Shown here: positions 11,627 to 39,453 of the stretch, in pieces
How the letters are laid out: each line of letters starts with the position of its first letter
How positions within the stretch are numbered: position 1 is the stretch's first letter
Source: a virus
Virus record (IMG/VR): IMGVR_UViG_3300046167_000269
Span: 1-48,694 of that record
DNA: 48,694 nucleotides
Direction: 5' to 3' (one strand)
Translations under genes and position numbers: made by a program
The notes under the pieces: generated by a model
Seen by the model: only the letters and a program-made list of their open reading frames with translations
Told to the model about the DNA's origin: nothing
Database searches by the model: none

Positions 11627-11977
11627 ATGAGTGCAGGTTATCATCATTTCATCATAGAGCAGGGCGCAACATTTGGTCAGACCCTAACTCTTAAAGATTC
11701 ATCAGATGCAGTTATAAATTTAACTGGTTTCTCAGGCGCAATGCAGTTTAGAGAAAATCCTGATGCAAGTTCCTCAATCCTAGATATAACTACAGCTAAC
11801 AGTCGCATGACTATGGGTGGTGTCGCAGGAACAATAGCACTATTAGTAAGTGCCACAGATACAGCAGCACTTACCGCATCAGACGGTGTCTTTGATTTAG
11901 AGATCACCAGTGGTGCAGGTGTTGTATCAAGGCTTATAGAGGGTACTTACAGCATACGCAGGAACATAACTAGATGA
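11627..11977 (+). CDS. Putative baseplate/fibre-associated protein, BppU N-terminus-like (116 aa)
   Basis: Beta-rich protein with IEQGATFGQTLTLKD and NLTGFSGAMQFRENPD, resembling the N-terminal domain of BppU-type baseplate proteins that anchor fibres. Start has AGGAAG about 7 bases upstream. Its stop overlaps the start of the giant fibre gene (ATGA), suggesting coupled translation and a role in attaching the fibre. Assignment is moderate. Confidence 0.62.
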   Translation: MSAGYHHFIIEQGATFGQTLTLKDSSDAVINLTGFSGAMQFRENPDASSSILDITTANSRMTMGGVAGTIALLVSATDTAALTASDGVFDLEITSGAGVVSRLIEGTYSIRRNITR

Positions 11978-14900
11978 GTTCCGTAGATTCCATAACAATA
12001 ACCAATACTGATCAAACCAATCAGATAGAGATAACCTCTACTGACGGCATAACAGTTACAACGGTTGGCACACAAGGTCTAGCAGGACCAAGTGCAATTA
12101 TGAGTCGTGGTTTAGATCAAACCACAGCGACAAGCACAAACAACGGTGCATTGCTTGTTTACGATCATGGTAATGAGAAATGGACTGCATCAAATACAAC
12201 CGCAGCACAATCTCTTACACAAATACTATATAACTTGCAGTTAGGTGGTGGTGGCTCTACTGTAACAACCATACTTGATGAAGATAACATGGCTTCTGAT
12301 AGTGCAACTGCATTAGCCACACAACAAAGCATTAAAGCCTATGTAGATGACAATAATGTAAACCAAGACCTAGACATCAGAGATGATGACGGCAATCTTA
12401 TTGACATAAGGATAGATAGTGAGGTTTTACAACTATTAGGTGGAGATGGAATGACATCTTCAGCTTCAGGTGTAGGTGTTACATTTGCAGTTGATGCAAC
12501 CGTAGCTAGATTATCTGCAGCACAAACATTTACAAACAAGACCTTAACCAGTCCAGTTCTTAATGGCTCTCTATCAGGAACAGCTTTTCTTGATGAGGAC
12601 AACTTTAGTTCTAACAGTGCCGTTGCAGTAGCATCACAACAATCTATTAAGGCTTATGTAGATGCTGCAATCACAGCCGAAGATTTAGACATAACGGACG
12701 GAAGCAATACAGGTGCTATAGATTTAGACTCTGAAACACTTGGTATTCTCGGTGGCACAGGGCTTACTTCTAGCCTAAGTGGTAATAACATTACCCTTGC
12801 AATAGATAGTACCGTAGCAACGCTTACAGGAACGCAGACACTAACAAATAAGACACTTACTGCACCAGTAATTGCAACAATAAGCAATTCAGGAACAGTT
12901 ACCCTACCAACAGGATCAGAAACACTTGTTGGGCGTGCAACCACAGACACACTTACAAACAAAACATTAACTGCACCAACAATTAACTCACCCAAACTAA
13001 ATGGGTCAACAACAGTTACAACAACAGGCGCAGAGTTAAATATTCTTGATGGTGATACATCAGCATCATCAGTAGTTATAGTAGATGCCGACCAAATCAT
13101 TCTTAATGATAATGGCACAATGAAACAACTAGCTGTAACAAGGCTAGACACATATGTATCAGGAACAACGGCTACACTTACAAATAAAACCCTAACAAGT
13201 CCAGTCTTAAACGGAACATTATCAGGTAACGCTTTCCTAGATGAAGATGATATGTCATCTAACTCAGCTACAAAGGTAGCTTCACAACAAAGCATAAAAA
13301 CTTATGTTGATGCACAGCTTACCGCACAGGATTTAGATGTATCTGACGGTAGCAACGACATATCCATAGATTTAGATAGCGAAAGCCTAACACTAGCAGG
13401 TGGTACTGGTATCACATCCACCGCAAACACAAATACAGTTACTTTTGCTATAGATGGCACTGTAGCTACGCTTGCAGGTAGTCAAACGCTTACAAATAAG
13501 ACCATAGATGTAGATAACAACACAGTATCTAACATAGAGGTTGATAACCTTAAGTCAGGTGTACTTGACACTGACCTTTCTAGCGTTGCAGCAACAGACA
13601 CAACTATTGCTTCTGCAAAAGCGATTAAGACCTATGTAGATGCACAAGTAACTGCACAAGACCTAGATATATCAGATGGCTCTAATAATATTGCCATTGA
13701 TCTTGATAGTGAGACTTTATCTTTGCTTGGTGGTACAGGTGTAACCTCTACTGCTTCTAATAACGGCGTTACATTTGCAATAGGTCAATCTGTAGGCACA
13801 TCTGACAATGTGCAATTTGGAACTGTTACTGCAGCTTTAAGTGGCAACGCAAGTACGGCTACCGCACTAGAAACAGCAAGAACTATTGGTGGTGTTTCAT
13901 TTGACGGCACAGCAAACATAAGCCTTGCAGGTGTCAACACAACAGGTAATCAAGACACAAGCGGAAACGCAGCAACGGCTACAGCTTTAGCAACTGGTCG
14001 CACAATAGCCCTAGCAGGCGATGTAACTGCTTCAGGCGTAAGTTTTGACGGTACAGGTAATATAAGCCTAACCACAACAATTGCTGCAAATAGCGTGGCT
14101 CTTGGAACAGACACCACAGGAGATTATGTAGGCACTATTACTGGCGGAACTGGTATTGATTCTACAGGCGCAACAAGTGGTGAGGGAATAGCCCATACAC
14201 TTAGCCTTGACCTTAATGAACTACCCACAGAGACAACCATTGCTGATGCAGACTTTATTGCTATGGTGGATGCCACTGATGATGCTTCAGGCAAGATCAC
14301 CTTTGAGAACTTAGAAGATGCAATATTTAGTTCTGTAAGTGGCGATATTCTTATTGCAGAAGATGGTGCAGCTACCATACAGGCTAATAGTGTTGCACTA
14401 AGCACAGATACAACTGGTAACTATGTAGCAGGTATAAGCGGTACTGCTAACGAAATAGAAGTATCAGGTTCAGGTAGTGAGGGTGCAACGGTAACTGTAG
14501 GTTTGCCTGACAATGTAACCATCTCAGGCAACTTAACTGTAAACGGTACAACCACTACAACAGATACTAATGAACTTCATGTAAACGACCCATTAATCAA
14601 GCTAGCCAAAGACAACACAGCTAACTCACTAGATATAGGTTTCTACGGACAGTACAGGGCATCAGGTTCTAATAACCAATTTACAGGTCTATTTAGAGAT
14701 CAAAACGATAGCGGTAAATACAAACTCTTTGAACTCTTAGAAGCAGAGCCTACAACCACAGTCAACACAAGCGGTACTGGTTTCCAAATAGCCACATTGG
14801 TAGCAAACCTAGAGGGCGCTGTAACAGGCAACGCATCTACAGCTACTAAATTAGCAACAACAAGAGCAATAGCACTTTCAGGAGATGTAGTAGGTACAGC

Positions 14901-17900
14901 AAACTTTGACGGTTCTGCAGGTATATCCATAAGCACAACCATACAAGCAAACTCAGTTGCATTAGGTACAGACACAACAGGTAATTACATTGCAACTATT
15001 GCAGGAACATCTAATGAAATAGAGGTAAGTGGTAGCGGTAGTGAAAGTTCAGCAGTAACAGTTGGCTTGCCGTCAGCTACAGAGATTACAACTTCTCTTG
15101 GTGTAGGTGGTGGCTCTACTAACGGTGTAGCAATATCACAAGGCGCAATAGCCATTAAGAACGGTGGAACACAATCAAGAGTAGATTTTTATTGTGAATC
15201 ATCTAACGCACACTACACAAGACTGCAATCAGCAGCACATTCTGCTTATAGCGGAAACCCAACAATAACACTACCAGTAGCCACAGGAACTTTAATTGGT
15301 ACAGGCGATAGCGGTTCTGTAACCAATGCAATGTTAGCAAACTCAAGTGTTAACTTTGGTGGCGTAACAGTTGCACTAGGGGCAAGCGATACTACTCCTG
15401 CATTTAACTTACAAGATGCTACTGGTTATCCAACTTCGTCTTTAACTGGAACGATTACCAATGCACAGTTAGCAGGCAGTATTGCAAATGCAAAATTAGC
15501 CAATTCCACAGTTAGCTTTGGCGGAATATCACTTGCTCTCGGTGCTTCTGATGCAACACCTGCATTTGATTTAGCTGATGCAACAAACTACCCAACAAGC
15601 AGTCTTACAGGAACAATAACAAACGCACAACTTGCAGGCTCTATAGCTAACGCAAAACTAGCCAATAGCAGTATTACAGTTGGCGATGGTAGTAACACCA
15701 CAGCAATAGCATTAGGTGGAACTATCACTTATGCAGCAGGTGAGGGATTAGATGTAGCTGAAAGTTCAGGAACTATTACCTATTCAGCAGAAGATGCAAC
15801 AAGTTCAAACAAAGGTATAGCTTCATTTACAGGTGATTTTGCTGTAAGTAGTGGTGCGGTATCTCTTGGTACTTCAGGTGTAACTGCAGCAAGCTATGGT
15901 AGTGCTACGGCAGTTCCAGTAATAGCAGTTGATGCCAAAGGAAGAATAACAAGTGCAAGCACTGCAGCTATATCAACTAGCTTTACTCTTTCTGACGGCT
16001 CAAATACGCAAACAATAAGCGGTGGCGATACCTTAACAGTAGCAGGCACAAGCAATGAAGTAGATGTAGCCGTAAGTGCAACAGATACTTTGACAATAGG
16101 ATTGCCAAATGATGTAACTGTTTCTAACAATTTGACAGTAAGCGGTAACTTAACGGTAACAGGAACTACCACACAAACTGGTTCAGTTGTTACAGACAAT
16201 AACTTTACAGGATTAACAAACGCTAACACTGGCAACGCCACAGACTTTGGTTTCTACGGCAAGTATGTTGTATCAAGCACAACTAAATATGCAGGTATCT
16301 ACTACGATGCTTCCGATAGCGGAACATTCAAGATATTTAAAGATACGCAAACAGCACCAAGTTCAACGGTTAATAGTGGTGCTACAGGATATGCTGCAGC
16401 AGATTTAGTTATTGCAGGTCTAACAACCACAGGTATAACGCTTGGTGGTACAGCCATAACATCAACAGGCGCAGAACTAAACATATTAGATGGCGTAACT
16501 TCTACCGCAGCAGAACTTAATATTCTTGATGGTGTTACAGCCACAACTGGTGAGATTAACATTCTTGACGGTGATACAAGTGCTACATCTACCACATTAG
16601 CTGATGCAGATAGGGTAGTGGTAAATGACAACGGCACTATGAAGCAAGTTGCCCTTACAGACTTTGAGACATACTTTGAGACATCATTAGACACACTTAA
16701 CAATGTAACAAGCGTAGGAACTCTTACATCTCTTACAGTAAGTGGTGATGTAACAGTAGACACAAACACTTTAAAGGTTGACAGCAGTAATAACAGGGTA
16801 GGTATTCTTAATGCTTCGCCTGATGTTTCGTTGGATATTGGTAGTGCAACAGATGCTATTCATGTACCAGTAGGAACAACCAGTCAAAGACCAAACAGCC
16901 CTGCAGCAGGTTACTTTAGATACAACACAACTACAGGTGGTTTTGAGGGTTACACTGACGAGTGGGGTGCAATCGCAGGTGGTGGCGGTGCTTCTGCAAT
17001 GGAGACAGACAACTTTACAGGTAATGGCAGTACAACCGCATTTACACTAAGTAGTTCTGTAGCTAGCGAAGATAACCTAATTGTATTCATAGAGGGTGTG
17101 TTTCAAAACAAAGCAACTTATGCAGCTAGTGGTACTACAATCACATTCGCAACCGCACCTGCTAACACAAGAAAGATCGTAGTATTCCATGTAAGAACAG
17201 CTATATCAGGCACAAGCATGGTACAAGATGCCTTTACAGGTAATGGTTCAACAACTGCATATACATTAAGTGCCTTACCTAACAATGAGAACAACACACA
17301 GGTATACATAGACGGTGTTTATCAAAACAAGGCTACATACACCACAAGCGGAACAACACTAACATTTGATACCGCCCCTGCTAACTCAGCAGCCATAGAA
17401 GTAATGATGTTCGCACAGACAACTGTGAATGTGCCTGCATCAAACGCAGTAACCACAAGCACGATAGCAGACGGCAATGTAACCACAGTTAAGATCAATG
17501 ATGATGCCGTAACACTGGCTAAGATGGCAGGTCTTGCTAGAGGTAAGCTAATTGTAGGAGATGCTTCAGGAAATCCAAGTGCGTTGGCTCTAGGCTCTGC
17601 AAACTATGTTCTTACATCAGACGGTACGGATGTTTCATGGGCAGCTTCACAAGTAGAGGAATCACCATCATTTACAGGTAATGTTGCAGTAGGCGGAACT
17701 TTAGGCGTAACAGGGCAAAGCACACTAAGCGGTATTGCTTACCCAACATCAGACGGTAGCAATGGTCAAGTATTGCAGACAAACGGCTCAGGAACTTTAT
17801 CTTTTGCCACAGTAAGCGGAACTACAATTAACAACAACGCTAATAACAGAATCATAACTGGTAGTGGTACTGCTAATACTTTAGAGGGTGAAGCCAATCT

Positions 17901-18552
17901 TACTTTTGATGGAACTAATCTAGGAATTGGTGCATCAACAGTAGATGCTAAATTGCATATTGAGGTTTCTTCAGGTGATGCTAATTTAAAACTTGAAGAT
18001 GGTTCTGCAACATATATGCTTTTAGACCAAAACTCTATTGGTGGTTCAGATGTTATAAGATTTAAAACAGGTAGCAATCTTGATGAACGCATGAGGATTC
18101 TTAGCAGTGGTGGTATAACCTTTAACGGAGACACAGCCACAGCTAACGCACTTGACGATTATGAAGAAGGTACATGGACTCCAGCACTTGATAATATAAC
18201 AACGAATTCATCAACCATGTACGGCATATATACAAAGATTGGAAATATATGTCATATACACGCAAAAATTTCTGTAACAGTAGCTTCACTGCCTGGCGCA
18301 CAATTTCAGATAAGCGGTTTACCCTTTGCAGCTACAAACACAAGTGATACAGGGCAAAGAGCAATCATAACGATAGGTGGAGACTGTGCAAATACAGGTG
18401 GAGTAGTCAATGGAAGGGCGCAGTTCATAACCAATGGCAGCACCTTACAAGGAATCTACCTTAACAGCGGAACTACAGCGACTTTTACTTATAACATAAT
18501 GGATCACACTGTATTTGAGTTGCACATTCATGGATTTTACACAACAACATAA
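11974..18552 (+). CDS. Giant repetitive tail fibre protein (2192 aa)
   Basis: Probable receptor-binding fibre. It is Thr/Ser/Asn/Gly-rich with many degenerate repeats: LTNKTLTSPVLNG, ASQQSIKAYVDAQ, DLDISDGSN..IDLDSE, TGAELNILDGVT, GNLTVNGTT and two FTGNGSTTAFTLSS modules near residues 1680-1800. The C-terminal tip (about residues 2050-2192) contains LDDYEEGTWTPAL, a tip domain widespread in marine phage fibres. N-terminal residues 1-40 presumably attach to the virion. Its length and low complexity point to a long trimeric fibre. The gene lies among head genes rather than after the tail hub. Confidence 0.85.
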   Translation: MSSVDSITITNTDQTNQIEITSTDGITVTTVGTQGLAGPSAIMSRGLDQTTATSTNNGALLVYDHGNEKWTASNTTAAQSLTQILYNLQLGGGGSTVTTILDEDNMASDSATALATQQSIKAYVDDNNVNQDLDIRDDDGNLIDIRIDSEVLQLLGGDGMTSSASGVGVTFAVDATVARLSAAQTFTNKTLTSPVLNGSLSGTAFLDEDNFSSNSAVAVASQQSIKAYVDAAITAEDLDITDGSNTGAIDLDSETLGILGGTGLTSSLSGNNITLAIDSTVATLTGTQTLTNKTLTAPVIATISNSGTVTLPTGSETLVGRATTDTLTNKTLTAPTINSPKLNGSTTVTTTGAELNILDGDTSASSVVIVDADQIILNDNGTMKQLAVTRLDTYVSGTTATLTNKTLTSPVLNGTLSGNAFLDEDDMSSNSATKVASQQSIKTYVDAQLTAQDLDVSDGSNDISIDLDSESLTLAGGTGITSTANTNTVTFAIDGTVATLAGSQTLTNKTIDVDNNTVSNIEVDNLKSGVLDTDLSSVAATDTTIASAKAIKTYVDAQVTAQDLDISDGSNNIAIDLDSETLSLLGGTGVTSTASNNGVTFAIGQSVGTSDNVQFGTVTAALSGNASTATALETARTIGGVSFDGTANISLAGVNTTGNQDTSGNAATATALATGRTIALAGDVTASGVSFDGTGNISLTTTIAANSVALGTDTTGDYVGTITGGTGIDSTGATSGEGIAHTLSLDLNELPTETTIADADFIAMVDATDDASGKITFENLEDAIFSSVSGDILIAEDGAATIQANSVALSTDTTGNYVAGISGTANEIEVSGSGSEGATVTVGLPDNVTISGNLTVNGTTTTTDTNELHVNDPLIKLAKDNTANSLDIGFYGQYRASGSNNQFTGLFRDQNDSGKYKLFELLEAEPTTTVNTSGTGFQIATLVANLEGAVTGNASTATKLATTRAIALSGDVVGTANFDGSAGISISTTIQANSVALGTDTTGNYIATIAGTSNEIEVSGSGSESSAVTVGLPSATEITTSLGVGGGSTNGVAISQGAIAIKNGGTQSRVDFYCESSNAHYTRLQSAAHSAYSGNPTITLPVATGTLIGTGDSGSVTNAMLANSSVNFGGVTVALGASDTTPAFNLQDATGYPTSSLTGTITNAQLAGSIANAKLANSTVSFGGISLALGASDATPAFDLADATNYPTSSLTGTITNAQLAGSIANAKLANSSITVGDGSNTTAIALGGTITYAAGEGLDVAESSGTITYSAEDATSSNKGIASFTGDFAVSSGAVSLGTSGVTAASYGSATAVPVIAVDAKGRITSASTAAISTSFTLSDGSNTQTISGGDTLTVAGTSNEVDVAVSATDTLTIGLPNDVTVSNNLTVSGNLTVTGTTTQTGSVVTDNNFTGLTNANTGNATDFGFYGKYVVSSTTKYAGIYYDASDSGTFKIFKDTQTAPSSTVNSGATGYAAADLVIAGLTTTGITLGGTAITSTGAELNILDGVTSTAAELNILDGVTATTGEINILDGDTSATSTTLADADRVVVNDNGTMKQVALTDFETYFETSLDTLNNVTSVGTLTSLTVSGDVTVDTNTLKVDSSNNRVGILNASPDVSLDIGSATDAIHVPVGTTSQRPNSPAAGYFRYNTTTGGFEGYTDEWGAIAGGGGASAMETDNFTGNGSTTAFTLSSSVASEDNLIVFIEGVFQNKATYAASGTTITFATAPANTRKIVVFHVRTAISGTSMVQDAFTGNGSTTAYTLSALPNNENNTQVYIDGVYQNKATYTTSGTTLTFDTAPANSAAIEVMMFAQTTVNVPASNAVTTSTIADGNVTTVKINDDAVTLAKMAGLARGKLIVGDASGNPSALALGSANYVLTSDGTDVSWAASQVEESPSFTGNVAVGGTLGVTGQSTLSGIAYPTSDGSNGQVLQTNGSGTLSFATVSGTTINNNANNRIITGSGTANTLEGEANLTFDGTNLGIGASTVDAKLHIEVSSGDANLKLEDGSATYMLLDQNSIGGSDVIRFKTGSNLDERMRILSSGGITFNGDTATANALDDYEEGTWTPALDNITTNSSTMYGIYTKIGNICHIHAKISVTVASLPGAQFQISGLPFAATNTSDTGQRAIITIGGDCANTGGVVNGRAQFITNGSTLQGIYLNSGTTATFTYNIMDHTVFELHIHGFYTTT

Positions 18553-33471: not shown

Positions 33472-33858
33472 ATGCAACAAGACGGAAGATTTAGCGGAGA
33501 CATGGATAGAAACGAAGTAGAGATGGATTTGCAAAAGTTCATGGCTATGATAGAGGAGATCGGTCAGCTTAAAGATAAGATAAGGGAACTAGAAGATGCA
33601 ACCAATGTTAATCCTTGGCAAAAGGTTATACATCTAGCAAGGGCAGTGGACTCATGGCGCATATTCCCTAGAATCTTTGTAGTGGTTTACATCTATCTTA
33701 TGTATGAATCAGTCATATGGTTTATGAACCTACCTGAGCCTAACCTAGAGCAATCAGCACTGGTATCTGTAGTAGTGGGTGCTATGGGTGTTGTATTTGG
33801 TGTTTATTCAGGTAAGTCAGGACAAAGCAAAGGCTTCAAGGGTGAAGAAGATAAGTAA
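33472..33858 (+). CDS. Holin-like membrane protein (128 aa)
   Basis: Residues 20-45 are helical and charged, followed by two hydrophobic segments (about 69-86, FVVVYIYLMYESVIWF, and about 97-114, ALVSVVVGAMGVVFGVY) and a Lys-rich C-terminus. This two-helix form with a basic tail resembles class II holins and a marine phage membrane family. Position ahead of spanins and endolysin supports a lysis role, which remains inferred. Ribosome binding site AGGAG. Confidence 0.6.
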   Translation: MQQDGRFSGDMDRNEVEMDLQKFMAMIEEIGQLKDKIRELEDATNVNPWQKVIHLARAVDSWRIFPRIFVVVYIYLMYESVIWFMNLPEPNLEQSALVSVVVGAMGVVFGVYSGKSGQSKGFKGEEDK

Positions 33859-33866
33859 AAATTCAC

Positions 33867-34160
33867 ATGGATGCCTTTACATTAATTGAAGATGTAGGGT
33901 TGCCTATAGCCAGTGGCTTGGTTATGGGTTATTTTATATTCCTAATCATGCAACAGATGATGAACGGTTTAGTCAACAAGATTAAGACCGTAGAGGGCAT
34001 TGCAAAGATGCTTATTACTAGGGCATCAATAATGAACAACGACATGATACGAATTGATACAAGCGTGTCTAGTGCCTTGAATTTGCCACCTGACCTAGAT
34101 CGTATCGCAAGAGCAGAAAACTTTGTAGAGGACGGCAAGATAGATGCTAGGCGTGATTAA
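33867..34160 (+). CDS. Small membrane protein A of a tandem pair (97 aa)
   Basis: One N-terminal hydrophobic helix (about residues 11-30, GLPIASGLVMGYFIFLIM) is followed by an amphipathic helix and MNNDMIRIDTSVSSAL, a form close to DQDMIRLQQKVNTVL in the next gene. The two are probably distant paralogues. Function unknown; a holin or antiholin role is possible. Stop overlaps the next start. Confidence 0.6.
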   Translation: MDAFTLIEDVGLPIASGLVMGYFIFLIMQQMMNGLVNKIKTVEGIAKMLITRASIMNNDMIRIDTSVSSALNLPPDLDRIARAENFVEDGKIDARRD

Positions 34161-34402
34161 TGGATATAGTCGCACTAATAGATAAGTTTGGTTTTACAAC
34201 AGTCATGGTCGTTGGCTTGGGCTATTTTGTGTATTATGTGTGGATAACTATAACCAAAACCATTGACCCTGCAGTAGCAGAAATGCAAAAGACTATCATT
34301 AGGCTTACTGATCAATTAAGGCTCTTAGATCAAGATATGATACGATTACAACAGAAGGTAAATACAGTTTTAAAATTAAAAGATGATGACGCTGATAATT
34401 GA
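34160..34402 (+). CDS. Small membrane protein B of a tandem pair (80 aa)
   Basis: Hydrophobic segment at about residues 12-32 (TTVMVVGLGYFVYYVWI), then a helix with TIIRLTDQLRLLDQDMIRLQ. Sequence layout parallels the preceding gene, suggesting duplication. It lies directly upstream of the csgF-like unit in the same transcription direction. Confidence 0.6.
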   Translation: MDIVALIDKFGFTTVMVVGLGYFVYYVWITITKTIDPAVAEMQKTIIRLTDQLRLLDQDMIRLQQKVNTVLKLKDDDADN

Positions 34403-34481
34403 TTTTTTTATTGATCTAACAATAATATTATTTTCAGTAGGTTTGATAATGTCATGGTTTGATGATAACCATCCTTTATGA
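34386..34481 (+). CDS. Possible 31-residue hydrophobic peptide
   Basis: An open frame from ATG 34386 to TGA 34481 encodes a single hydrophobic helix ending FDDNHPL. It overlaps the end of the preceding gene and its stop overlaps the csgF-like start (ATGA). No clear ribosome binding site, but the tight packing and membrane character suit a small lysis or leader peptide. Confidence 0.4.
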   Translation: MTLIIDFFIDLTIILFSVGLIMSWFDDNHPL

Positions 34482-34990
34482 AGAAAAGATTGACAAAACA
34501 AGAGAGAATAAAAGAAGAAGCAGTAAAGACTAGAATTGCTGTGTGGGCTTTTTTAATGGGTTGGATTTTAATTATTATAATTATCAGCGTAAATTTAAAT
34601 GCAGACGAAATGGTACATCAATTTAAGAGTCCTAGTTTTTCAGGTGTTGGAACATCAAGCCATTATCTGACTATAGAGAACCAACAGTTCAACAGGAAAC
34701 AGGCTATAGCTGATGAAATTAAAGCTTATCAAGATGATCTAGAGCGAGAAAAAAACAACACAACATTAGCAAGGTTTATAAGAAACCTAGAAAGCAGGAT
34801 TTATGCACAACTTAGCAGGCAGCTTGTTGACAATCTTTTTGGCGAAACACCAAGTGAGTCAGGGGTGCTTGAACTAGAGGGCAATACAATAGAATACAAT
34901 GTAGACGGAGACTTTATAACTCTTGTTATTACGGATAGCGATGGAAACACAACTGAAATCACTTTGCCTATTGGGAATTTTGCTTTCTAG
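34478..34990 (+). CDS. csgF: CsgF-like curli assembly protein
   Basis: In bacteria CsgF plugs the CsgG outer-membrane pore and couples curlin export to nucleation outside the cell. Here a basic N-terminus and a hydrophobic helix (residues 20-38) precede NADEMVHQFKSPSFSGVG (41-58); VHQFKSPSFSG parallels the conserved N-terminal TFQFRNPNFGG of E. coli CsgF, the CsgG-binding segment. The rest follows CsgF too: FIRNLESRIYAQLSRQLVDN, then YNVDGDFITLVITDSDGNTT before the end. It overlaps the csgG-like gene. Confidence 0.82.
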   Translation: MKKRLTKQERIKEEAVKTRIAVWAFLMGWILIIIIISVNLNADEMVHQFKSPSFSGVGTSSHYLTIENQQFNRKQAIADEIKAYQDDLEREKNNTTLARFIRNLESRIYAQLSRQLVDNLFGETPSESGVLELEGNTIEYNVDGDFITLVITDSDGNTTEITLPIGNFAF

Positions 34991-35771
34991 CTGTACCAAT
35001 TGGTCAATATTAAATAATTACATACCACCAGTTAGCTTAACCAAGCAGGCAGAAGTTGGAACTTTAATTAATAAAGAGCTTGCGAATATAGGCAAGCCTT
35101 TCATAAAACCAACGATAGCCGTATATCCTACAAGTTTTACAGATCAAACAGGACAACGCAGAAGTAATAGTTCATACGCATCTTTCTCAACAGCTATCAC
35201 ACAAGCACCTCATGCCTATTTAATTCGTGCCTTGAAACACGCTAGTGATGGTGAGTTCTTTGATGTGGTAGAAAGGGTTGGTTTGGATAATCTAACCAAA
35301 GAAAGACAACTTATAAGATCAACAAGAAAAGACTTCAAAGAAAGCAAAGATTTATTACCCTTAACTTTTGCAGGTTTGTTAATGGAAGGTGGTGTGATAG
35401 GATATGAAAGCAACATAAAGTCAGGTGGCTTGGGTGCTAGATATTTGGGCATAGGCTCAACCAAAGAGTACAGACAAGATATTGTTACCGTTTCTTTGCG
35501 TACCGTTTCTGTAAGTACAGGGAAAGTTTTGACTGAAGTGCTTACAACAAAATCAATCTTAAGTGTAGCAATCAGCCAAGATGCTTTCCGTTTTGTTTCT
35601 AATGATACTGAATTAGTAGAGATAGAAAATGGGATGGTAGAAAATGAATCTGTAAATATTGCACTACAAAATGCAATAGAAACAGCAGTCTTAGAAACCA
35701 TACAACTAGGTTTAAAGAAAAATTTATGGAGCATAATAGATGAAGAAATACTTAATGCTATTCGTGGTTAG
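34941..35771 (+). CDS. csgG: CsgG-like outer-membrane curli export pore (lipoprotein)
   Basis: CsgG forms a nonameric outer-membrane channel. The start at 34941 gives a lipoprotein signal with lipobox LLSSC (residues about 12-16 region). Then IPPVSLTKQAEVGTLINKEL, AVYPTSFTDQTGQRRSNSSY, RALKHASDGEFFDVVERVGL, LTKERQLIRSTR, LMEGGVIGYESNIKSGGLGA, ARYLGIG, YRQDIVTVSLRTVSVSTGKV follow the CsgG family in order, including the pore and periplasmic helices. Length of 276 residues equals E. coli CsgG closely. Overlaps both neighbours. Confidence 0.88.
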   Translation: METQLKSLCLLGILLSSCTNWSILNNYIPPVSLTKQAEVGTLINKELANIGKPFIKPTIAVYPTSFTDQTGQRRSNSSYASFSTAITQAPHAYLIRALKHASDGEFFDVVERVGLDNLTKERQLIRSTRKDFKESKDLLPLTFAGLLMEGGVIGYESNIKSGGLGARYLGIGSTKEYRQDIVTVSLRTVSVSTGKVLTEVLTTKSILSVAISQDAFRFVSNDTELVEIENGMVENESVNIALQNAIETAVLETIQLGLKKNLWSIIDEEILNAIRG

Positions 35772-36438
35772 TTTTTTGTACGCAGACAATGAGGTTTATG
35801 TAGATCAAGTAGGCGCTACATTTAACTTAGATATAGAGCAATTAGGCTCATCAAACATAATAGGTGGTGCAACTGCAGCAGCAGGCTCAATGAACGCACT
35901 TGACCTTGACGGTGCAACAATGACTTTAGACATTAATCAAATAGGCGACAGCAATAAATTTTTAGGCGACATCACAGCCGATACATTCACAGGGTTCTTT
36001 GAGTTTGATGGCGATAGTAATACATTCAACATTCAAACTGACCCTACTAATACACATGGCGCAGACAACGGAAACTTCAATGTAGATGTAACTGGTGGAA
36101 GCAATACTTTTACCCTTGATGTAGCTACAAATGACCTTGCAGGAACTTTAGACCTTGACTGGATAATACAAGGAGACAGCAACACTTTTGACTTTGATAT
36201 TGACTATGATACGGCAACAAACTATGTTGATGTAGATGGAGATTCAAATACAGTTAATTTTGACGGTGATGGATATGCGGATGCCTTTTTTAAACTAGAG
36301 CATGATGGAAACTCTAGAACATTTAACATAGACCAACAAAGTACATTAGCTAGTGACTGGTTACGCATCAATTCTAACGGCAATAGTGGTACTGTTTGTG
36401 TCATTCAAAGTGACGGCGGAACAAGTACCTCGTGTTGA
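35740..36438 (+). CDS. Curlin-like repeat protein (candidate CsgA/B-type fibre subunit)
   Basis: Signal peptide (residues 1-15, ends about FLYADN) is followed by about eight repeats of a beta-arch pattern, with Asp-rich variants: IEQLGSSN, INQIGDSNKF, FDGDSNTFNI, GGSNTFTLDV, IQGDSNTFDF, VDGDSNTVNF, HDGNSRTFNI, NGNSGTVCVIQ. Curlin repeats have the related Q..G..N form but are Gln/Asn-rich; here Asp and Thr replace many of them. Two Cys near the C-terminus could form a disulfide. Start overlaps the csgG-like gene. Confidence 0.75.
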   Translation: MKKYLMLFVVSFLYADNEVYVDQVGATFNLDIEQLGSSNIIGGATAAAGSMNALDLDGATMTLDINQIGDSNKFLGDITADTFTGFFEFDGDSNTFNIQTDPTNTHGADNGNFNVDVTGGSNTFTLDVATNDLAGTLDLDWIIQGDSNTFDFDIDYDTATNYVDVDGDSNTVNFDGDGYADAFFKLEHDGNSRTFNIDQQSTLASDWLRINSNGNSGTVCVIQSDGGTSTSC

Positions 36439-37462
36439 TGTTGGAGAAATATCAGAACTAAACGGCATTGCTCGTATTGTACGAGACAAAACAGAAACAG
36501 CAGAATTAAATGATGACATAAGATCATACGACACCCTTGAGACCTCTAATGGTCGCATGGCTGTTACTTTCCTTGATGACACTCTTATACGCCTTACTGA
36601 ACACTCACAAGTATTAATAGATGAGTTTGTTTATGACCCTGACCCTAATAAATCAAAAATGGCACTCAACTTTGCCAAAGGCACTGCAAGATTTGTAACT
36701 GGTAAATTAAACAAGGTTGCTAAAAAAAATATAACAATTAGAACCAATAGTGCGACTGTAGGCATAAGAGGTACAGATTTTACTATCACAACCAATGAGA
36801 TTGGTGAGTCATTAATAATTTTGTTGCCTAATGAAGATGGTACTGCAAGCGGTGAAATAGAAGTCATGACTGCTATGGGTACTGTATTGCTTAATAAACC
36901 ATATCAATCAACAGTTACAACGGTCTTTGAATCTGCGCCAAGCAAACCAGTCATATTAGATTTAACACTAGACCTTATAGACAATATGTTAATTGTTACT
37001 AATCCCAAGCCTAATGAAGCCCTTGCTGAAGAAACAACAGATAAAAGTAGCAATGTTCTAGATGTGGATTTTTTAGAGTTTGACGAACTTGAGCAAGATT
37101 TTCTAGCAGAAGATGATCTGCAATTCACAGAGTTAGATATAAATTTTCTTGATGTAAATTTCTTTGAGGACTTGCTAAAGATAGTAAATGAACTTGACAA
37201 GCTAAAAGAAGATGACCTGCAACAAGAGCAAACCATAACTAGAATTACTGGCACAAAGGTTGGGCAAGATACTGATACTCAAATTATTACATTAGTAACA
37301 GGCGATCTAATAAGTCTGCGTAGAAGGGTGCAACAGTCAGTGCAAGTAGATTTGAACTCTAGTCAAGGATATACTGTAATCTTTATACAGGACGGTGTTT
37401 CCAACATTGTAAAGATAAACGGTGGTGGTGATTCAGTCATAAGTATTAAACAAGGCTCATGA
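36353..37462 (+). CDS. Secreted FecR-domain protein with C-terminal curlin-like repeat
   Basis: A GTG start at 36353 gives a signal peptide (ILTAIVVLFVSFKVTA) encoded in the +1 frame of the curlin-like gene. The FecR domain covers about residues 28-150, with GEISELNGIARIVRD, NGRMAVTFLDDTLIRLTEHS and NSATVGIRGTDFTITTN. A region of Asp/Glu/Leu repeats (about 225-290) follows. Residues about 338-369 contain VIFIQDGVSNIVKIN and GGDSVISIKQ, similar to the curlin repeat. Here FecR is probably a structural or sugar-binding fold, not a sigma-factor regulator. Confidence 0.78.
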   Translation: MTGYASILTAIVVLFVSFKVTAEQVPRVDVGEISELNGIARIVRDKTETAELNDDIRSYDTLETSNGRMAVTFLDDTLIRLTEHSQVLIDEFVYDPDPNKSKMALNFAKGTARFVTGKLNKVAKKNITIRTNSATVGIRGTDFTITTNEIGESLIILLPNEDGTASGEIEVMTAMGTVLLNKPYQSTVTTVFESAPSKPVILDLTLDLIDNMLIVTNPKPNEALAEETTDKSSNVLDVDFLEFDELEQDFLAEDDLQFTELDINFLDVNFFEDLLKIVNELDKLKEDDLQQEQTITRITGTKVGQDTDTQIITLVTGDLISLRRRVQQSVQVDLNSSQGYTVIFIQDGVSNIVKINGGGDSVISIKQGS

Positions 37463-37686
37463 CACATATAAAAAAATTTATAGCTTGGTTTATTGGATTA
37501 TTCCAACAACGCTATCAAATCAGAGTATCTTTTAACAAAGAGTACGGTGATGCAGACGACAAGGTTTACATCAGCAAAAAGATTTTAGTACAAAAAGAAA
37601 AACATCTTAAATTTCGCAATTTAGACAATAAAGTTATAGAGTATAGAAGTGCAGGCGGACTAAATTACATTATTGAGGATATGTAA
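37459..37686 (+). CDS. Small protein of unknown function (75 aa)
   Basis: N-terminal hydrophobic stretch (KKFIAWFIGLF) may form a signal anchor, followed by a basic beta-rich part (YQIRVSFNKEYG, KILVQKEKHLKFRN). It overlaps the FecR-domain gene and ends at the start of the i-spanin-like gene. It does not resemble CsgE to me. Unknown. Confidence 0.6.
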   Translation: MTHIKKFIAWFIGLFQQRYQIRVSFNKEYGDADDKVYISKKILVQKEKHLKFRNLDNKVIEYRSAGGLNYIIEDM

Positions 37687-38081
37687 TGCAACAGATTCTA
37701 ATTGGAATTATTATCATGCTAGGTTTAGCAACCTATTATTTTTACAGTCAAAATCAAATACTTAGTGCAAACAATTCAGCATTAGAAGGCGCAGTTGCCA
37801 CACAAGAAGAAGCGATTGCTACGATACAAGCGGACTTTGAATTACAAACACAACAGTTACAAGACCTTACAGTTAAAAGCCAAGCTGCACAAAAAGAATT
37901 AAATAGATATACACAGTTTATACAAAACTACGAGTTAGCATCTGAAATACTAGCAGACCCAATTAAAATGGAGAGGAAAATAAACAATGGTACAAAGCAT
38001 ATCATGGAAAACATTGAGCAAATCAGCAGTGATGTTGATGGTCTTGATAATGGCTTGCAGTTGCAGTCTACTTCCGACTAG
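37686..38081 (+). CDS. Rz-like i-spanin candidate
   Basis: A single N-terminal membrane helix (residues about 3-19) and a long periplasmic coiled coil (about 30-110, with EEAIATIQADFELQTQQLQD) match inner-membrane spanin architecture. The nested lipoprotein gene in another frame (37987-38376) is the usual partner arrangement. Spanins fuse inner and outer membranes at the end of lysis. Family identity is architectural, not sequence-based. Confidence 0.65.
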   Translation: MQQILIGIIIMLGLATYYFYSQNQILSANNSALEGAVATQEEAIATIQADFELQTQQLQDLTVKSQAAQKELNRYTQFIQNYELASEILADPIKMERKINNGTKHIMENIEQISSDVDGLDNGLQLQSTSD

Positions 38082-38376
38082 AGAAATACAAGTAAGCGCC
38101 AAGCCTTTAGAACGCAAGATAGTGCAACCTGTCATGCCTAGAGCAATTGACCTTAAAGAATTGCAGTGGATGACTGTTACACCTGACAACTGGGAAGATC
38201 AATTAGCAAGAATAGAGCAACAAGAGGGTGAATTAGTGTTCTTAGCTATGACCATTCCTGACTATGAAGTCATGGCATACAATATGCAAGAGATCAAAAG
38301 ATACATCACAGAACTAAAAGATGTGGTGGTTTACTACCGAAAAGTAACAACAGAAAACCTTTCAAAAGAAGAATAA
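37987..38376 (+). CDS. Rz1-like o-spanin candidate (lipoprotein)
   Basis: Signal sequence with a lipobox around LIMACSC, then a periplasmic domain with PRAIDLKELQWMTVTPDNWE and MTIPDYEVMAYNMQEIKRYI. It overlaps the end of the i-spanin candidate in a different frame by 95 bases. The Pro-rich linker is short, and the domain after it resembles small lipoproteins that I recall near phage lysis genes. Role inferred from position. Confidence 0.6.
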   Translation: MVQSISWKTLSKSAVMLMVLIMACSCSLLPTREIQVSAKPLERKIVQPVMPRAIDLKELQWMTVTPDNWEDQLARIEQQEGELVFLAMTIPDYEVMAYNMQEIKRYITELKDVVVYYRKVTTENLSKEE

Positions 38377-38612: not shown

Positions 38613-39008
38613 ATGGCAAATAAAATAACACCATTCGTATATAACGCTATTCTTGAAAGGGTCGTAGATGGAGACACCATTGATGTTACTCTTGACTTGG
38701 GATTCAGTGTCTTTCTTCACAAGCAACGCTGCAGGTTGGCAGGTATAGACACTCCTGAGTCAAGAACTCGTAACCTAGCCGAGAAAGCATTAGGTAAAAA
38801 GGCATCAGCAAGACTTAAAGAAGTTTGCGTAGGCTCATTCAAAATACAATCACTAGGCAAAGGTAAATATGGCAGAATACTTGCAATCCCTTATACGGAA
38901 GATGGGCAAGATATTTGCCAAATGCTTATCAATGAGGGTCATGCAGTTGAATACTGGGGCGGAACTAAAAAAGCAAAAGTCAGAGATGACGGAACTTGGG
39001 GAGAATAA
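38613..39008 (+). CDS. Staphylococcal-nuclease-like (SNc/thermonuclease) domain protein
   Basis: Ca-dependent nuclease fold. VVDGDTIDVTLDLGF (residues about 17-31) holds the metal-binding Asp residues, CRLAGIDTPESRTRN the catalytic Arg and Glu region, and GKGKYGRILAIPYT the second Arg; a Gly-rich ending WGGTKKAKVRDDG follows. No signal peptide, so it probably acts in the cytoplasm. It could degrade host DNA or process DNA during maturation. Confidence 0.85.
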   Translation: MANKITPFVYNAILERVVDGDTIDVTLDLGFSVFLHKQRCRLAGIDTPESRTRNLAEKALGKKASARLKEVCVGSFKIQSLGKGKYGRILAIPYTEDGQDICQMLINEGHAVEYWGGTKKAKVRDDGTWGE

Positions 39009-39009
39009 T

Positions 39010-39453
39010 ATGCACATATCACAAGAGGGTATAGATTTAGTCAAGAAGTTTGAGGGTTGCAAATTAGAAGCATATCAATGTGCTGCAGGTGTGTGGACTA
39101 TAGGCTATGGCTCAACACATGGTGTACAAAAGGGTGATACATGGTCGCAAGAGAAAGCAGAGATAATGCTTATAGATGAACTAGAAGAATATGGTAAGTA
39201 TGTAGAAGAAGCAGTTACCATACCTCTAAATCAATGTCAGTTTGATGCTCTTACTTCTTGGACATTTAACTTAGGACCAAGCAACTTAAAAAGTAGCACT
39301 ATGTTGCAGGTTTTAAATCAAGGTGATTATGAGGGTGTTCCATATCAAATAAAAAGATGGAACAAAGTAAGCGGACAAGTAAATGATGGTTTGATTCGTA
39401 GACGAGAAGCAGAAGCATTATTATTTGAGGGCAAACATTGGGAAAATGTCTAA
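39010..39453 (+). CDS. GH24 endolysin (phage lysozyme)
   Basis: Cleaves host peptidoglycan. KKFEGCKLEAY holds the catalytic Glu and AGVWTIGYGST the active-site strand; the usual Asp between them is replaced by Cys (YQCAAG), a variant known in this family and tolerated in T4 lysozyme. NLGPSNLKSSTMLQVLNQGDY and GLIRRREAEALLFEG are family regions. No export signal, so it needs a holin. ATG 39010 follows AGAATAATA. Confidence 0.9.
   Translation: MHISQEGIDLVKKFEGCKLEAYQCAAGVWTIGYGSTHGVQKGDTWSQEKAEIMLIDELEEYGKYVEEAVTIPLNQCQFDALTSWTFNLGPSNLKSSTMLQVLNQGDYEGVPYQIKRWNKVSGQVNDGLIRRREAEALLFEGKHWENV

Follow-up and report, generated by a model that had tools for sequence, protein, structure and literature searches.

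A curli-type gene module in a siphovirus-like phage lies in a slot beside the lysis genes that other phages fill with an unrelated secreted cassette

The stretch of DNA analysed here, called the window, is a single 48.7 kb virus record (IMG/VR record IMGVR_UViG_3300046167_000269; 48,694 nucleotides). Its genes include an HK97-type capsid, a head-tail adaptor, a tape measure and lambda-J-like tail proteins, and judged by gene content the carrier phage is siphovirus-like with a lambda-J-type tail. Downstream of the tail genes, four consecutive open reading frames (ORFs) on the plus strand, overlapping head to tail between 34478 and 37462, encode homologues of the curli secretion proteins CsgF and CsgG, a curlin-like repeat protein and a FecR-domain protein (Table 1). 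The first-pass annotation of the window had proposed this gene set, and the order, overlaps and positions of the four genes were confirmed.

Table 1. Features of the curli-type module and its surroundings, and positions of the alternative cassette in related viral contigs.
Feature	Position	Strand	Evidence or remark
Left slot border; membrane protein common to both cassette types, holin candidate	33472..33858	+	
hol2; small coiled-coil protein with one transmembrane segment, first module gene	33867..34160	+	phrog_18771, E 1e-23
hol3; hol2 paralogue, one transmembrane segment and coiled coil	34160..34402	+	phrog_18771, E 4e-23; present in part of the modules
CsgF homologue	34478..34990	+	PF10614, E 1.5e-17; alignment; motif in viral homologues
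CsgG homologue; outer-membrane lipoprotein secretion pore	34941..35771	+	PF03783, E 9e-48; lipobox
Secreted curlin-like repeat protein; candidate fibre subunit	35740..36438	+	AlphaFold2 model; Curlin_rpt in homologues; HTVC008M alignment
Secreted FecR-domain protein; acidic low-confidence linker, curlin-like C-terminus	36353..37462	+	PF04773, E 2.8e-11
Right slot border; 75-amino-acid protein kept with both cassettes	37459..37686	+	
Inner and outer spanin (Rz/Rz1 type), overlapping frames	37686..38376	+	PHROG Rz-like spanin, E 4e-8 and 1e-12
Endolysin (phage lysozyme)	38869..39453	+	PF00959, E 6e-46
Cassette B	L132:6002-9917; L117:9073-12967; L137:15551-19437		

On sequence grounds, the identities of CsgF and CsgG are certain. 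In addition to the Pfam matches, the solved E. coli CsgG matched the window CsgG with an E-value of 6e-43, a comparison that the earlier CsgG assignment passed. The start of csgG is most likely the ATG at 34941, which would yield the lipobox LLSSC. The exported part of CsgF starts DEMVHQFKSPSFSGVG and aligns with the CsgG-binding N-terminus of E. coli CsgF. This docking segment is strongly conserved, its motif being present in nearly all of 79 viral homologues, and the window CsgF still looks able to dock in CsgG. It has been suggested that phage CsgF may no longer pair with CsgG (PMC9004378). However, such a parting of the two proteins does not fit the conservation of the docking segment. In PHROGs, the CsgF, CsgG and FecR proteins were each assigned to a phage family without known function (phrog_35372, phrog_20175 and phrog_37870, respectively), the curlin-like protein being the exception. 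CsgE (PF10627) was not found in the window, as the first-pass annotation had noted, or in four related records, while the E. coli control was detected. CsgE was likewise reported to be absent from published phage modules (PMC9599517). Therefore, its absence is not disqualifying for a module of this class.

The curlin-like protein starts with a signal peptide, contains G-x-S-N-T/V repeats and has an all-beta AlphaFold2 model (mean predicted local distance difference test score 84.7, predicted TM-score 0.82). Of 42 homologues, 13 reached the Pfam Curlin_rpt model, the best with E 2.5e-4, and the window protein is alignable with the curlin-associated protein of Pelagibacter phage HTVC008M. The top neighbours of the model in Foldseek were weak, mostly beta-helix proteins, and none was significant. 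The signal peptide, the repeats and the predicted all-beta structure thus hold for what had been described as a beta-arch protein, but a beta-solenoid is not proven. Comparison of the curlin and FecR family profiles with PDB sequences gave nothing convincing.

The FecR-domain protein is predicted to be secreted, as also anticipated. Its signal peptide is directly followed by the FecR domain, PF04773 is the only domain found, and the layout of FecR iron-signalling regulators, a cytoplasmic anti-sigma region plus a transmembrane segment, is absent. The C-terminus reads like a curlin repeat: GYTVIFIQDGVSNIVKINGGGDSVISIKQGS. The motif Q.G..[NRKQ], located 23-25 residues from the end and followed by a second Q about 21 residues on, was present in 82 of 82 distinct viral FecR homologues, a count that reflects conservation within one homologous family and not independent cases. 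In these proteins the motif occurs at the C-terminus and nowhere else, and shuffled C-termini reach it in 6%. In profile-profile comparison (hhalign), the C-terminal 45 residues of the FecR family matched curlin families with E-values of 3.4e-4 and 1e-3 (single comparisons); a largely overlapping segment before them was weaker, and all other segments had E-values of at least 0.06.

The FecR domain itself matched 5ix9, a "Cell surface anchoring domain" that we take to be the anchoring region of a Marinomonas adhesin, in a Foldseek search (62 columns, 1.6 A, E 8.8e-3, probability 1.00). Retention domains of this type are known to keep adhesins in outer-membrane channels (PMC13090378). Because the curlin-like C-terminus is present in all 82 homologues and the FecR domain resembles an adhesin anchoring domain, the protein is probably not an iron regulator and may more plausibly be a fibre anchor or nucleator. 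A similar arrangement is found in the LapA/RTX adhesin retention modules, in which a folded periplasmic stop holds the adhesin in an outer-membrane channel (PMC13090378). However, those adhesins use TolC-like channels, whereas the window FecR protein would use CsgG.

Gene orders were read from fetched loci, 36 of which had enough flank to be counted. In all 36, hol2 lies upstream of csgF, and csgF, the curlin gene and fecR are also invariably present. An adenylate cyclase gene (CHASE2 plus cyclase) follows fecR in 30 of the 36 loci. The cyclase is absent from the window and present in L010 and L012, whose CsgG is 98-99% identical to that of the window; a second curlin gene is also absent from the window. 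The frequent cyclase gene, found after fecR in alphaproteobacterial operons too, and the resemblance of the FecR domain to PupR agree with an explanation in which FecR acts together with the CHASE2-adenylate cyclase as an envelope sensor and the type VIII secretion system (T8SS) serves as an import or signalling device for iron or vitamins (PMC9599517). We regard this as unlikely: fecR is retained without the cyclase in the window and in six of the counted loci, its product combines a signal peptide with the lack of any cytoplasmic anti-sigma region, and a sensor of this kind leaves no role for the curlin gene or for the conserved curlin-like end of FecR.

The genes between 33867 and 34402 belong to the secretion module. 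In one study the gene upstream of csgF is called a "histidine kinase" (HK) (PMC9599517), and from their position and size hol2 and hol3 appear to be the genes so named. Pfam searches of their products (80-97 amino acids) found no kinase domain at E-values up to 1 and no holin domain. Even where the module is not near lysis genes, they accompany csgF, which argues against a holin role. Of the flanks described in the first pass, holin-like genes at 33472-34402 and spanins, the spanins are supported by PHROGs, but only the gene at 33472-33858 is independent of the module. In the close relatives L012 (5738-6885) and L130 (6944-7807), differing minus-strand genes are inserted between hol1 and hol2, forming an additional variable spot adjacent to the module.

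The csg module (cassette A) fills a fixed slot between 33858 and 37459. In L117, L132 and L137, which are close relatives and also siphovirus-like, csg genes are missing, and an unrelated four-gene secreted cassette (cassette B) lies between the same two border genes. Its genes encode an Asn/Thr-rich secreted protein (about 375 amino acids), an acidic secreted protein (about 750), a transmembrane coiled-coil protein (119) and a small lipoprotein (67). The window DNA is 91-92% identical to the cassette-B phages L277, L117 and L291 up to 33861; identity returns at 37473, inside the right border gene, at 83-89%, with nothing alignable in between. The 750-amino-acid protein was found in 234 viral-contig stretches. 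It had no relative in annotated phages, no Pfam match above the cut-off and no relative in PDB.

The two cassettes are mutually exclusive and have been swapped repeatedly at this one site, at least five to seven times. Of 22 relatives in a neutral sample drawn with a tail gene, all extending 1.5 kb or more beyond J, 19 carry the csg module (in one case assigned from the small transmembrane genes alone), three carry cassette B and none carries neither, although some entries are the same phage in several assemblies. Among 80 loci sampled by the outer spanin, csg-module genes are present in 34, cassette B in 30 and only the last cassette-B genes in four more; two (L424 and L426) clearly have neither, and ten are too short to tell. 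A spanin tree with 95 rows implies at least seven changes of cassette state, five of them forced by well-supported branches, although this is a quick tree with some long branches. The window falls into a supported clade of six csg and three cassette-B phages. The csg module also moves between phage types: the tail protein of the L143 record is 90% identical to that of the window, against only 57% for its CsgG, whereas the L019 record, with 89% identity in CsgG, lacks a tail gene of this kind within its 41 kb.

A domain of the Asn/Thr-rich protein recurs in the Pelagibacter phages HTVC202P, HTVC033P, HTVC023P, HTVC115P, Mosig and Baldr, none of which was matched in the CsgG search. Conversely, HTVC008M and Melnitz, which is a myophage of OM43, were not matched in the search for the Asn/Thr-rich domain. 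In HTVC033P, this domain lies near a lysozyme gene.

The position of the module between a holin candidate and the spanins, and its usual place beside spanins and endolysin in related viral contigs, could indicate that CsgG and CsgF act in lysis, as an outer-membrane pore that sets its timing or aids it, as was also proposed for Melnitz (PMC9004378) and considered in the first pass. However, in HTVC008M the module is far from the lysis genes, between ssb and baseplate/tail genes. Cassette-B phages keep their spanins and endolysin at the same site without any CsgG, and phages with the csg module retain both a secretion substrate and the docking segment of CsgF in every case. Since an unrelated secreted cassette can occupy the same slot, a cell-surface function is favoured and a pore needed for lysis is disfavoured; we consider the latter quite unlikely.

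We propose instead, with a probability of roughly 0.55, that the module is a phage-borne, CsgE-less T8SS cassette by which the infected cell, at a late stage, comes to display a beta-rich fibre on its surface. CsgG would form the outer-membrane pore, and CsgF would dock in it via its conserved N-terminus. The curlin-like protein would be exported through this late-made pore as the fibre subunit. The FecR domain would remain folded on the periplasmic side, and the curlin-like C-terminus on its long linker would template the fibre. The infected cell would thus wear a beta-rich coat or fibre before the spanins and the endolysin open it. The gain for the phage is most likely an altered infected-cell surface, by way of superinfection exclusion or aggregation. 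In HTVC008M, a second curlin protein, missing in the window, combines a PA14 domain with curlin repeats; this adhesin-like design was counted in favour of a surface fibre. The fibre could also decorate the virion or progeny, since the module directly follows the tail genes in the window phage. This is very improbable: the CsgF, CsgG, curlin-like and FecR products begin with export signals while virions assemble in the cytoplasm, and the same module occurs in phages without the tail genes of the window phage.

Several results weigh against a surface fibre or its supporting evidence. The Foldseek search of the curlin-like model against PDB gave nothing better than E 0.15 and no significant fold match, and the Pfam curlin repeat model (PF07012) matched nothing in the window, including the curlin-like protein, and no member of the FecR family. 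In the structure model of the FecR protein, the FecR domain is good but the remainder, including the C-terminus, has low confidence. Anti-sigma FecR/PupR domains match the FecR domain better (E 1e-4) than 5ix9, whose resemblance is weak by E-value. Among whole records, 21 of 30 encode CsgG, nine the cassette-B protein and none both, but these records were picked for carrying one cassette and many are incomplete. Finally, cultures infected with Melnitz showed no clumping (PMC9004378).

A broader interpretation, which we offer tentatively, is that marine phages dedicate this late slot beside the lysis genes to either of two unrelated cassettes of extracellular proteins, with selection on the infected-cell surface driving their exchange, and that the FecR protein, as a plug-type anchor and nucleator, would be a novel means of holding curli fibres. 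In the literature, phage curli genes are an unexplained oddity, and the roles proposed for them are iron-regulated import, lysis pores and sibling capture (PMC9599517, PMC9004378, PMC7029224). Since a second secreted cassette, about as common, alternates with the csg module at this site, the question moves from curli to why these phages must display something on the cell before lysis. Closely related phages that differ in their cassette constitute natural experiments, and the FecR-curlin fusion provides a concrete, testable anchor hypothesis that speaks against the label of iron regulator.

Other marine phages are already known to carry such a curli kit. The csgF-csgG-curlin-FecR set has been described in pelagimyophages (PMC7029224) and, together with adenylate cyclase and a "histidine kinase", in HTVC023P-type podophages (PMC9599517), and csgGF in Melnitz (PMC9004378). 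Among annotated phages, only HTVC008M and four Melnitz phages have relatives of both CsgG and FecR, and their gene order is the same csgF-csgG-curlin-fecR as in the window. The accompanying substrate and FecR genes therefore do not set the window phage apart, as had been supposed in the first pass. In IMG/VR, more than 570 stretches encode CsgG. Because the carriers named in PMC9599517 are Podoviridae and Myoviridae, its mentions of Siphoviridae concerning other genes, a siphovirus-like carrier appears to be without precedent in the literature examined. Also new are hol2 and hol3 as module genes, the curlin-like C-terminus of FecR and the fixed slot shared with an unrelated cassette.

The T8SS of pelagiphages (HTVC008M, HTVC023P-type phages and pelagimyophages) resembles the window module in its order of transmembrane gene(s), csgF, csgG, curlin gene and fecR and in the lack of CsgE, with 45% identity for CsgG and 38% for FecR between HTVC008M and the window. 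The window differs in its siphovirus-like carrier, its location in the lysis slot and the lack of a second curlin gene and an adenylate cyclase, both of which are frequent but not universal in pelagiphage-type modules. Melnitz shares csgF, csgG, the curlin-associated protein and the FecR protein with the window and has in addition a second curlin protein and the cyclase, although its description covered only csgF and csgG (PMC9004378). Compared with E. coli curli (CsgA-G), the CsgG pore and the N-terminal docking segment of CsgF are shared, while the window lacks CsgE and has degenerate curlin repeats and a FecR-domain protein instead of a classical CsgB.

Metagenome-assembled genomes (MAGs) of Hyphomonas and Caulobacteraceae (L195, L197 and L198) contain csgF-csgG-curlin-fecR-cyclase in the same order on apparently bacterial contigs. 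Their CsgG is 43-49% identical to that of the window, no hol2-type transmembrane gene was found in them, and their FecR C-terminus is only partly curlin-like. The viral module probably derives from such alphaproteobacterial operons, which agrees with the origin given in PMC9599517. Four other bacterial MAG records, assigned to Flavobacteriales (L196), Sphingobacteriales (L201), Pelagibacter (L206) and Pirellulales (L254), contain viral-looking module genes, with hol2 present or high viral-profile scores, and are probably misbinned phage contigs. A 1.5 kb contig named "Salmonella phage S.Kent 1-2-1" (L004, OR851715.1) encodes a CsgG 40% identical to that of the window; it is a low-coverage, unverified record and perhaps not phage DNA. 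Chance or an assembly artefact as the origin of the four genes was rejected, as many contigs from different metagenomes carry them.

The host of the window phage is not pinpointed by its genes. The best match of the major capsid protein is from a Rhizobium phage (50%), the tape measure matches phages of diverse hosts at 30-39% over less than half its length, and the GC content of 38.4% does not settle the host. A DNA-level search of annotated phages with the window gave no match. Searches of the window found no tRNA gene and no Rfam family, and promoter-like sites were no more frequent than in shuffles. Between the head and tail genes lies an ORF of 2192 amino acids (11974-18552) with tail-fibre-like matches. 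Downstream of the spanins, the genes for a nuclease (SNase) and the endolysin (38613-39453) overlap by 140 bases in different frames and are paired in many relatives.

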